Assembly (NCBI RefSeq): GCF_900102365.1 | Contig: NZ_FOIN01000002.1 | Location: forward strand, 1 to 64,000 | Source of the DNA: Thomasclavelia cocleata | GTDB taxonomy: Bacteria; Bacillota_I; Bacilli_A; Erysipelotrichales; Coprobacillaceae | Reading direction: 5' to 3' | Length of the DNA: 64,000 nt | In this document: in pieces, positions 22,783 through 63,977 of the stretch | How the letters are laid out: each line of letters opens with the position of its first letter | How positions within the stretch are numbered: the stretch's first letter is position 1 | Position numbers and translations under genes: made by a program | Notes under the pieces: generated by a model | What the model saw: the letters and a program-made list of their open reading frames with translations, nothing else | What the model was told of the DNA's origin: nothing | The model's database searches: none

Positions 22783-23242
22783 TTGCGATATTACCCCACA
22801 ATAAACTTTCATCCCTAGATATACCCGATAGGGTATTCAGTGATTTATTGCCCCTCCCATTGAACTGTACGTATGGGCTCTACATTTATATCGCTATCAC
22901 AAACTCTTAAGATAGTAGTTAAGGGGATGGACTAATCCTGGTCTATCCCCTTTTCCTATGCTTAGAACTTTCGGTGATAATATAAAGTTTACGACATCCA
23001 TGCCACTTCTTCTATACCACCCTAATCTTGTATTTGCACATTTATAGATTTCTTCTTCACTAAACCTGCATCGACATGCTTTGTTTAGCCTCATCAGATT
23101 TCTGTTCGTAACCTCGAAGATTTTGTTACACCACTTCCTTCACCCATAACATCGCTGTTAACGGCTTGTGATTCACTACACTTGGCGGTAAATACCCGTG
23201 GTTGGACTTTCACCAACTAGATGTATGCCATGCTCGGCACAC
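22783..23242 (-). mobile_element. Degenerate group II intron, copy 1 (open reading frame deleted)
   Basis: The minus strand begins GTGTGCCGAGCATGGC at 23242, followed by GGTGAAAGTCC and the CAAGTGTAGTGAATCACAAG segment typical of domain I of bacterial group II introns. The other end has a shortened domain-V-like element, GAGCCCATACGTACAGTTC (22880-22862), followed by a GGGAGGGG stretch. No reverse transcriptase is left. The 3' boundary is approximate. It starts 6 nt beyond the terminator of the GH36-like gene. It is related to the copy at 29385-30023. Confidence 0.65.
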
Positions 23243-29384: not shown

Positions 29385-30023
29385 TAGCACCCCTCATTAC
29401 ACTTTATGTATGGGTCTTGTATATGACGCTACATTTATATGTTAATACAACTTTACTCTCTTGAATACCTCATCTAGATTTTCATCTCTTAAAATTTTTT
29501 TAATTAATCCCATATTGCTATTTCTCCCACCTTTTGTAAATCTATTTAGAATCATTCTTTCTACCTTTATTCCCATAAGTTTATGATTCTCATTTATGAA
29601 ACTATCCTTGATTTCAAATTATCCAAACATTGCTCATAATAAGAATATACCATACAAACAATAAGTCCTTCAGGATTAGATACCTAATACAACCTCAAAT
29701 AACTTCTTGTGATTATCTTTTTCGTCCAATAGTATCATCACTGTTTTTAAAATTTATTGGATTACATCATCTCCAAGACCTCCCAGGTATAATTTATGAA
29801 TCCTATTTCTTTCACAATGTCTTAGTTTTAGGTTTACCTTTTAGACTTATATTCGTGAGACAACCCCATCGACCATTTAGTCTTATATCAAGTTTCTTTT
29901 CATACACTCGAAAAAAATCGCTACACCATTTCCTTCATCCTCAATATCACTATTAACAACTTGTAGTTCACTACACTTGACGATAACTGCCTATGATTGG
30001 TTTATCTCCAACTAAATTAGCAC
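29385..30023 (-). mobile_element. Degenerate group II intron, copy 2, with reverse-transcriptase N-terminal remnant
   Basis: The minus strand starts GTGCTAATTTAGTTGGAGAT near 30023 and follows copy 1 through the CAAGTGTAGTGAACTACAAG and GAAGGAAATGGTGTAGCG segments of domain I. Around 29560-29450 a short frame reads GLIKKILRDENLDEVFKRVK, which resembles the N-terminus of intron-encoded reverse transcriptases, then stops. A domain-V-like GACCCATACATAAAGTG element follows directly. The open reading frame has been deleted and the copy is more decayed than copy 1. It lies about 8-15 nt beyond the terminator of the aldolase gene. Confidence 0.6.
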
Positions 30024-60712: not shown

Positions 60713-62329
<1,617 letters not shown>

Positions 62330-62343
62330 TTATGTTTTATATC

Positions 62344-62371
62344 AAAATAAAAACGCCTTCTTTTAGAAGAC
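62344..62371 (-). terminator. Attenuator terminator in the pyrG leader
   Basis: On the minus strand GTCTTCT (62371-62365), AAA, AGAAGGC (62361-62355), then TTTTTATTTT. The 5' arm is pyrimidine-rich, so it could pair with extra G residues added at the RNA 5' end. Confidence 0.8.
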
Positions 62372-62379
62372 ATTTAATT

Positions 62380-62418
62380 GCCCTCTTACATTTTACCAAC
62401 TTTTTATTATCTAGGCAA
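62380..62418 (-). promoter_or_regulatory. pyrG promoter with GGGC start site
   Basis: TTGCCT (62418-62413), 17 bp, TAAAAT (62395-62390) on the minus strand. Seven bases further the transcript would start with GGGC at 62383-62380, the initial sequence needed for reiterative G addition at Gram-positive pyrG promoters. Confidence 0.78.
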
Positions 62419-62440
62419 TAATTTTTTTTCATCATAATAT

Positions 62441-62530
62441 AAAATAAAAGAAGGCGTGGGGAACACCTTCCATATGTATAGGTCGTTCTTGGGGAAGAAG
62501 GGGGGGTGACCTATACTTATATATTATCTT
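62441..62530 (-). ncRNA. Candidate small RNA 2: C-rich hairpin plus terminator
   Basis: On the minus strand a 9-bp stem GTATAGGTC / GACCTATAC (62516-62508, 62484-62476) encloses an eight-base C-rich bulge and an inner TTCTT/AAGAA stem with a CCCC loop. It is followed by a terminator GAAGGTGT-TCCCC-ACGCCTTC (62470-62450) with a TTTTATTTT tail, whose loop is also C-rich. A promoter could be TTGTAC/CATAAT (62600-62573) with 16 bp spacing. C-rich loops are typical of RNAs that bind Shine-Dalgarno sequences. Boundaries are approximate. Confidence 0.5.
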
Positions 62531-62596
62531 GTCTTGACGACATATGTAATAATATAAAATAAATATGAACGGATTATGAACTTTACAGTAAATTGT

Positions 62597-62680
62597 ACAA
62601 AAAAAGAAACAATTTCTTGTTTCTTTTTTGGCATAGGTGATTATATGGGAGAGGGGTCACCTATGCAAGTATTATTGTCT
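62597..62680 (-). ncRNA. Candidate small RNA 1: C-rich hairpin plus terminator
   Basis: On the minus strand GCATAGGTGA / TCACCTATGC (62666-62657, 62640-62631), a perfect 10-bp stem, has a 16-base loop starting CCCCTCTCCC. A terminator AAAAAAGAAACA / TGTTTCTTTTTT (62600-62629) follows directly. The stem sequence is related to that of the second unit 150 bp downstream. It could instead be the 3' end of the 62724 gene transcript. No clear own promoter was seen. Confidence 0.45.
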
Positions 62681-62723
62681 TTCTTTTACATAACCATAAT
62701 ACATATATGAATATACCTTATTT

Positions 62724-63977
62724 TCATTTAATTGTCAATATATTATAAATATTTTTAGTAATAATTGTACCATTAATCCTTTGGTATTCTTTTTCCAGAT
62801 AATTCTGGTAAGTCCCTGGAGAAATTATACCATTCAAATCAATTATATCCATTCCAGCTTTTCCCATAATCGTTTCTGCAAGCTTTACACAATTAGATCC
62901 TAAAACAAAATAAGTTTTAAAACGCCCTTTTTTAAATTTATAAAATTTTGTTTTAGTACGTAAATATAATTTACTAGCATAATCATTACAATCATCTTTA
63001 TTTTTATATGAATGTGGATACCATTGATAAGTATTCTCAAATATTTTTCTAATCTCTGCCTTTACACTTTCTAATTGTTTTGCAGTTAAACGTACACCAT
63101 AACTAAAAATAGTTTTTTTATCTACTTCTATACAAAAAGGAATATAACTTTCTCTTGGAGCAACAAATATAACACCATCACCAATTGATTCACACAATCT
63201 AATTGAATCATAATCATAATTACCATATGAAATAACATTATTATCAATACAAATATCACAATGCCCAATTGTTCCAAACCCATCTGGACTAACATGTATA
63301 AATATCTCTACATTTGCATGATCATGATCATCTAAAAACTTTTCTTTAGGCTCTACTGCTAAACGTTCATTAATATAATCCATCATTACTTTAGGAATAA
63401 TTGCTGATATAAAAATTGGAACAGGTATCCGAATTCTACGCTTTAAACTATCCTTATGTTGCTGTGGAACTACAGTAAAAACGCCATCAATAACATAGTT
63501 TATTCCTAAAAATAAACCATATACACCAATAAAAATCATCATTACATTCGCATCAACATATCGCCCCAAAAACAATGCTAATCCATATATTATTAAAAAT
63601 ATCGCTCCACATAAAACTGGAAAACGTCGATCAACTTTATCCTTTTTATAATTAAGATAAGTGATAAACTTAACAACTCCGTTTAAAGTAATATATAAAG
63701 CAAAAATTGCAAATAATAATCTTATTGGAATAGTTGTATAAATAATAATAAAAAAACCTATCACAATATTAATAATAATATTAAATAAATCCCCTTTTAA
63801 ATGCCTCTTAATAAAAACCCCTAATCCATGAAACCCATTTATAATTAAAATCCATCCTAAGACATCAAATACACGCATTAAAAAATTATCACGTTGAATA
63901 ATCGCCATAGTTGAAATAACAATCAGAATTAGACCCAAAACACAATAATAAACTGAATTGTAAATATTTCGTTTCAC
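62724..63977 (-). CDS. DUF308/HdeD-like membrane protein with C-terminal papain-like (permuted NlpC/P60-like) region
   Basis: 417 residues from GTG 63977, with AAAGGAGG 6-7 nt upstream. The first about 170 residues hold six transmembrane helices in the HdeD/DUF308 pattern. The soluble C-terminal part (about 220-400) has HVSPDGFGTIGHCDICIDNN with His239 and later YFVLGSNCVKLAE with Cys363. A His before and an N-C motif after is the layout of permuted NlpC/P60 or LRAT-like hydrolases. That assignment is an inference; the function is unknown. Confidence 0.65.
   Translation of the reverse strand: MKRNIYNSVYYCVLGLILIVISTMAIIQRDNFLMRVFDVLGWILIINGFHGLGVFIKRHLKGDLFNIIINIVIGFFIIIYTTIPIRLLFAIFALYITLNGVVKFITYLNYKKDKVDRRFPVLCGAIFLIIYGLALFLGRYVDANVMMIFIGVYGLFLGINYVIDGVFTVVPQQHKDSLKRRIRIPVPIFISAIIPKVMMDYINERLAVEPKEKFLDDHDHANVEIFIHVSPDGFGTIGHCDICIDNNVISYGNYDYDSIRLCESIGDGVIFVAPRESYIPFCIEVDKKTIFSYGVRLTAKQLESVKAEIRKIFENTYQWYPHSYKNKDDCNDYASKLYLRTKTKFYKFKKGRFKTYFVLGSNCVKLAETIMGKAGMDIIDLNGIISPGTYQNYLEKEYQRINGTIITKNIYNILTIK

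Follow-up and report, generated by a model that had tools for sequence, protein, structure and literature searches.

Two tandem C-rich small RNA genes predicted upstream of pyrG in Thomasclavelia cocleata and a direct-repeat promoter of such RNAs in the Coprobacillaceae

Two tandem units on the minus strand of a 64,000-nt stretch of Thomasclavelia cocleata DNA (the whole stretch is referred to as the window) lie with a DUF308 membrane protein gene on one side and pyrG on the other. Both units are very probably small RNA genes, as judged from their conservation, structure, promoters and non-coding sequence, and very probably form part of a dedicated regulon. In the family Coprobacillaceae, a direct-repeat box, a −10 box, a C-rich RNA and a terminator were observed in association with one another. 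Because this association is family-wide, the pair was assigned to a new regulon of sibling small RNAs, in which a regulator would bind the box and the C-rich loops would mask ribosome-binding sites. The probability of this reading was put at about 0.72.

Architecture and conservation of the two units

The preliminary description had reported two minus-strand hairpin units with a C-rich loop, each followed directly by an intrinsic terminator, and both were found in that place (Table 1). The run of C that was given there as eight bases long comprises seven bases, and five in relatives. Promoters were absent from that description; a direct-repeat box was found for unit 2 only, and a TTGACA-type promoter for unit 1. 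No long open reading frame was present in the region, which held only four chance frames of 25–44 aa. The units have the properties of trans-acting, base-pairing small RNAs, namely, a promoter of their own, an intrinsic terminator, no conserved open reading frame and a conserved exposed seed.

Table 1. Features of the two units and of the neighbouring genes, with positions in the window
Feature	Position	Strand	Basis or remark
Unit 1 −35 element, TTGACA	62733..62738	-	Consensus scan; 11/12 matches jointly with the −10 element, 17 nt spacing
Unit 1 −10 element, TATATT	62710..62715	-	Consensus scan and alignment
Unit 1 putative small RNA, ~105 nt	62598..62702	-	Start placed from the promoter, end from the terminator; genus-conserved
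Unit 1 5' hairpin, GUAUUAU...AUAAUAC	62669..62702	-	Fold
Unit 1 main hairpin, loop CCCCUCUCCC	62631..62666	-	Folds and covariation
Unit 1 intrinsic terminator	62596..62630	-	13-bp A/U-rich hairpin with U tract
Unit 2 direct-repeat box, GTTCATA-ATCC-GTTCATA, 11-bp period	62564..62581	-	Family-wide association
Unit 2 −10 element, TATTAT	62549..62554	-	Exactly 9 nt downstream of the box
Unit 2 putative small RNA, ~104 nt	62438..62541	-	Ends predicted
Unit 2 5' palindrome, UGUCGUCAAGACA	62530..62542	-	UGUCnnnGACA-like 5' element, recurrent at many box loci
Unit 2 main hairpin with CCCCCCCUUCUUCCCC	62476..62516	-	Folds
Unit 2 intrinsic terminator, UUCCCCA loop	62440..62471	-	Terminator scan; GGAAGGUGUUCCCCACGCCUUCU and U tract
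pyrG promoter TTGCCT-N17-TAAAAT and GGGC-start leader terminator	62345..62418	-	Separate from the units
pyrG (CTP synthase), downstream neighbour	60713..62317	-	Pfam CTP_synth_N, E 4.6e-126, and GATase
DUF308 membrane protein gene, upstream neighbour	62724..63977	-	Pfam PF03729, E 9.5e-6

The −35 element of unit 1 was retained as TTGACA (in one case TTGACT) across the Thomasclavelia sequences aligned with the region, and the −10 element in the relatives was TATATT, CATAAT or TACAAT. In one relative (G004), the CATAAT sits within a leftover TTCATA half-site. The predicted full transcript of unit 1 had a folding energy of −31.1 kcal/mol (z −6.4), and none of 200 shuffles was equally stable; a shorter stretch of the unit gave a fold z of −6.7. 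The main stem was formed by GCAUAGGUGA and UCACCUAUGC (62666–62631) with the loop CCCCUCUCCCAUAUAA, and the UCCC-type motif occurred in this hairpin loop only. The 5' hairpin yielded no covariation evidence because its arms are invariant in the genus.

No −35 box was recognised in unit 2. Its predicted full transcript had a folding energy of −26.4 kcal/mol (z −5.1; 0/200 shuffles equally stable), and the fold z of a shorter stretch was −4.8. The main stem GUAUAGGUC/GACCUAUAC (62516–62476) encloses ACCCCCCCUUCUUCCCC, the whole being GUAUAGGUC-ACCCCCCCUUCUUCCCCAAGAAC-GACCUAUAC. Both the hairpin and the terminator loop of this unit contain the UCCC-type motif, as UUCCCC. Transcription from the base of the main hairpin, which would have an immediately preceding −10 box and TGTCGTCAAGACA as an operator, was rejected, since TAnnnT stands exactly 9 nt after the repeat at every small RNA locus; the palindrome is therefore 5'-terminal in the RNA. 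The terminator sequence CGCCUUCUUUUA and the pyrG leader sequence UAAAAGAAGGCG are complementary over 12 nt here. This complementarity was not kept in the relatives and was therefore taken as chance.

The region was matched in all eight other genomes of the genus at 72–95% identity (in one, split over two contigs) when 40 related genomes were searched, and is therefore not a chance feature. The loop CCCCUCUCCC of unit 1 was nearly invariant among the relatives, and compensatory double changes were found in 5 of the 10 stem pairs in 11 sequences. For the hairpins of this type (type A) from several genera, 6/9 pairs were compensatory and 94% of the cells were paired in 18 sequences; none of 500 shuffles gave a covariation as high, and slid registers were far off too. 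The covariation alignments were trimmed by hand to the hairpin, which favours structure, and the double changes are independent of the trimming. In nine sequences of unit 2, a stem pair covaried between U-A and C-G and CCCCCUUCUUCCCC was invariant. The terminator loop CCCCA of unit 2 was invariant in every relative aligned, with a changing stem. The compensatory changes in both sets of hairpins, together with the nearly invariant loops, support the earlier suggestion of sibling regulatory RNAs with C-rich loops.

The direct-repeat promoter and its sibling loci

The promoter of unit 2 is of the type TTCAYA-N5-TTCAYA, followed after exactly 9 nt by a TAnnnT −10 box. The repeat alone was searched for with the pattern GTTCATANNNNNTTCAYA in 21 related genomes, and the downstream sequence was left unconstrained, so that the test was not circular. 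Of 21 matches obtained, 17 had TAnnnT at N9 and were followed by a C-rich RNA in 17/17 cases, whereas none of the four matches that had no TAnnnT at N9 preceded such an RNA. In the 2.96-Mb genome of the strain itself, the exact box with the −10 box at N9 occurs twice, both times before C-rich RNAs. When two mismatches were allowed in the box, the same genome gave 177 matches vs 179 for the control, i.e., no signal.

A strict scan, with CTCCC required downstream, gave 28 matches in 22/43 family genomes; the reversed pattern had no match. The strict pattern was not found outside the Coprobacillaceae in 395 genomes drawn from the class. A looser scan (YCCC downstream), the counts of which are partly overlapping matches of a single locus, gave matches in 41/43 family genomes and in 12/273 other genomes of the order; its reversed control gave none within the family and two matches in all 316 genomes of the order. 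In a species-wide scan, 4 of the 20 matches (a parachlamydia, two delta-proteobacterial records and an archaeon) were left out as chance, and the genera represented were Thomasclavelia, Faecalibacillus, Longibaculum and Candidatus Stoquefichus, of the family Coprobacillaceae. Fifty-five distinct promoter loci combined the repeat, the N9 spacing and the −10 box with a 5' end resembling UGUC or UGUA, with C-rich words and with a terminator region rich in T. Five genomes of another family of the same order (G301, G302, G303, G305 and G306) carried a TTCACA-N5-TTCACA box with TATCAT and UUUUUCCCCC downstream, and these boxes suggest that a divergent form of the regulon exists beyond the Coprobacillaceae.

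A third RNA of the same genome (L042; G000:C21:4963-4994) has the exact box and −10 box upstream. This RNA has two hairpins that are C-rich, UCCCC in its terminator loop and a fold z of −8.6, and it adjoins a PTS-like permease gene; a stretch near it is masked with N. A probable fourth RNA (L048; G000:C37:47240) has a one-mismatch box and adjoins prfA, from which it is divergent; it shows a single-stranded CUACCCCUCCCUUU and a long terminator. prfA-linked RNAs were also seen in G009, G010 and G016. The box RNAs are located at unrelated sites, i.e., at pyrG, at prfA, after thymidine kinase and near ABC-transporter genes, and fall into sub-types: the type-A hairpin of the window, a CUCCCUUU hairpin that follows thymidine kinase, and the prfA-linked RNAs. 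Two complete units of box and type-A hairpin stand in tandem in another genus (L123, G041); the RNA gene was therefore duplicated in tandem more than once, or the duplication is old. CRISPR-like repeats (GTTTCAATACATCTTATGTTGTTATTAAAC) were observed near a chance box match (L049; G000:C43:2466).

Putative regulator, targets and alternative readings

The following mechanism is proposed. Units 1 and 2 would be transcribed independently as non-coding RNAs of ~100 nt each. A phosphorylated response regulator of the OmpR/PhoB type would bind TTCAYA-N5-TTCAYA and switch on unit 2, and the same regulator would switch on at least one, probably two, other small RNA genes of the genome. Promoters of this layout are normally interpreted in this way, with an OmpR/PhoB-type regulator acting on an 11-bp-period repeat that replaces the −35 box, and the bound repeat would serve here as the substitute for that box. 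Unit 1 would have come under an ordinary TTGACA promoter by drift, and its expression may be constitutive. The stems would expose CCCCUCUCCC, CCCCCUUCUUCCCC and the UUCCCC of the unit 2 terminator loop, and the predicted pairing of these words with G-rich ribosome-binding sites would block translation. By analogy with known RNAs, mRNAs are probably silenced through the covering of their ribosome-binding sites.

The C-rich RNAs might instead act as sponges or protein-binding decoys, with no pairing to mRNA leaders. Invariant loops with drifting stems are what would be seen for any ligand-binding loop, and several copies per genome would suit titration. However, the siblings share only short C-rich words, and these lie in structurally different places: in a hairpin loop, in a single strand or in a terminator loop. 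Hence, pairing with G-rich leaders fits better than one protein site, and a decoy function is considered unlikely. Moreover, the binding of UCCC loops to G-rich ribosome-binding sites was proven for LhrC and other analogous RNAs (PMC4132741).

The existence and the identity of the regulator in the proposed mechanism are both predicted from the box. Direct repeats with an 11-bp period are typical of PhoB/OmpR-family regulators, and the HssR box, which we take to be GTTCATATT-N2-GTTCATATT, is close to the box of unit 2. The box could thus be read as a Pho (phosphate-starvation) box or as an HssR-like heme box, which would concern the regulator only and be compatible with the small RNA reading. 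Such an assignment is considered improbable. Nearly all pstS promoters of the same genomes carry a different repeat, mostly TTTACA-N5-TTAACA vs TTCAYA. The Pho box was rejected on these grounds, and the regulator is therefore probably not PhoP. The box was not found at any of the 13 OmpR-type regulator genes of the genome, nor was a regulator gene recognised next to it at the loci that were read. The helix TNVVEVYIRYLRNKI of L291 resembles VVEVYVSKVRKKL of CiaR. The PhoB-like helix RTVDVHIKRIREN of L297 (C48:210544) makes the latter a candidate regulator, which is only a guess.

The putative targets were explored through the complements of the exposed words. GGGAGAG-N1-12-ATG occurred about twice as often as the control in nine genomes, although Shine-Dalgarno composition alone could give as much. 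In the genome of the window, 4 of ~10 real GGGAGAG-leader genes encode LytTR regulators by hand count, the total of LytTR genes being 14; the hypergeometric value of 8e-8 assumes 2,800 genes and comes from the data that had suggested the hypothesis. The LytTR leaders with GGGAGAG are those at C54:131462, C44:11930, C64:1556 and C70:14576. The matches of the close relative G005 included no LytTR gene. With the plain anti-Shine-Dalgarno sequence of the ribosome itself, too, LytTR start regions gave the better pairing (p 0.04), which dilutes the signal. LytTR regulators are tentatively named as targets. In pneumococcus, the csRNAs have additive effects on the quorum-sensing gene comC (PMC4507080), and for this reason the lead deserves a test. 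A two-component system may be envisaged with C-rich sibling small RNAs as its main output, which would silence LytTR/Agr-type quorum-sensing regulators via unusual GGGAGAG sites. This extension is doubtful; if true, it would parallel the csRNA control of comC, with a different box and different RNAs. The complement GGGGAAGAAG of unit 2 was not enriched and had fewer matches than the control. Unit 2 targets sought through this complement were rejected, the one conserved long match being a 227-aa membrane protein (G000 C19:5479, and G005). agrD was also rejected as a target in G005 (2850005), where no clear open reading frame was found.

The GGGC leader of pyrG with its terminator resembles the CTP-sensitive reiterative-transcription attenuator of B. 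subtilis pyrG, and a similar leader precedes the gene in the majority of the relatives from Thomasclavelia and Faecalibacillus. The units themselves are found immediately before pyrG, both in the window and in most genomes of these two genera, as a cis-acting, nucleotide-sensing leader or attenuator of this gene would be. That the hairpins have such a function is nevertheless very improbable. Each unit has a terminator of its own, and the promoter and GGGC-start leader terminator of pyrG come after the units; in other genera, the neighbour of the equivalent units is prfA, thymidine kinase or a transporter gene. Moreover, the pair was kept in G006, where pyrG was not found adjoining, which largely refutes a role as pyrG leader. 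It is also very improbable that the units are ordinary terminators or hairpins formed by chance, without a function as RNA and conserved on account of promoters or DNA structure: the region lies between co-directional genes, where terminators are expected, but terminators alone need no 10-bp hairpin with an invariant 10-nt loop, and the covarying stem pairs, the two promoters and the same layout at 55 distinct loci would be left unexplained.

Relation to known small RNA systems

Membership in no known family, as noted by eye in the preliminary description, agreed with the Rfam covariance models: neither LhrC nor another small RNA family reached the cut-off, and the matches below it were at chance level (pT181 ctRNA and SpF25 were rejected as generic hairpins, E ≥ 0.027). 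Elsewhere in the window, group II intron D1-D4 (RF02001) was matched twice above the Rfam cut-off on the minus strand (23030-23161 and 29796-29956).

The CiaR-driven csRNAs of Streptococcus (PMC3091779, PMC4507080) are alike in having several siblings per genome, unpaired anti-Shine-Dalgarno sequences, an intrinsic terminator and a direct repeat with N5 upstream of the −10 box. Their promoters contain TTTAAG-N5-TTTAAG with a spacing of 10 to TATAAT (PMC3091779), whereas TTCAYA and a spacing of 9 nt are found here; the csRNA promoter pattern, NTTAAG-N5-TTTAAG with a −10 box 10 nt downstream, was absent from the units. Furthermore, no sequence match was seen, the lineage here is the Coprobacillaceae, and the C-rich words lie between two hairpins in the csRNAs but mainly inside the hairpin loop here.

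LhrC1-5 of Listeria (PMC4132741) are likewise multicopy siblings with redundant UCCC motifs in the hairpin loop, single strand and terminator loop. They are under a two-component system, and the likeness in this respect rests on the predicted regulator of the units. The LisR-responsive element is found further out, upstream of −53, compared with about −38 to −22 for the present box, and the loops differ from those of LhrC in being CCCCUCUCCC or CCCCCUUCUUCCCC.

The comparison with RsaE/RoxS drawn in the preliminary description holds as an analogy of mechanism and fails as membership, since RF01820 had no match above the cut-off in 149 genomes of the class, including the genome of the window and sampled family members, with a positive B. 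subtilis control. RsaE/RoxS of Staphylococcus/Bacillus (RF01820; PMC4409812) share the C-rich regions and the blocking of ribosome-binding sites, the latter being predicted here. They are controlled by the two-component systems ResDE/SrrAB (PMC4409812), for which a counterpart is predicted here, and differ in a promoter element around −65 and in structure.

RNAs of this kind have been described in streptococci and Listeria. Judged by Rfam and the papers searched, the box, the RNAs themselves and the lineage are new. A literature text search found no papers on small RNAs of the Coprobacillaceae, and no trans-acting small RNA, small RNA regulon or small RNA-controlling two-component system was found described for this family, which includes gut commensals such as Thomasclavelia and Faecalibacillus. 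The design of box and RNA, conserved across nearly the whole family, leads to predictions, testable in cultured strains, for the promoters, the transcript ends, the seeds and a shared regulator. The Coprobacillaceae would be a further lineage, beside streptococci and Listeria, with multicopy C-rich small RNAs that are apparently regulated by an OmpR-type regulator, which suggests that the same circuit was repeatedly invented or is very old.
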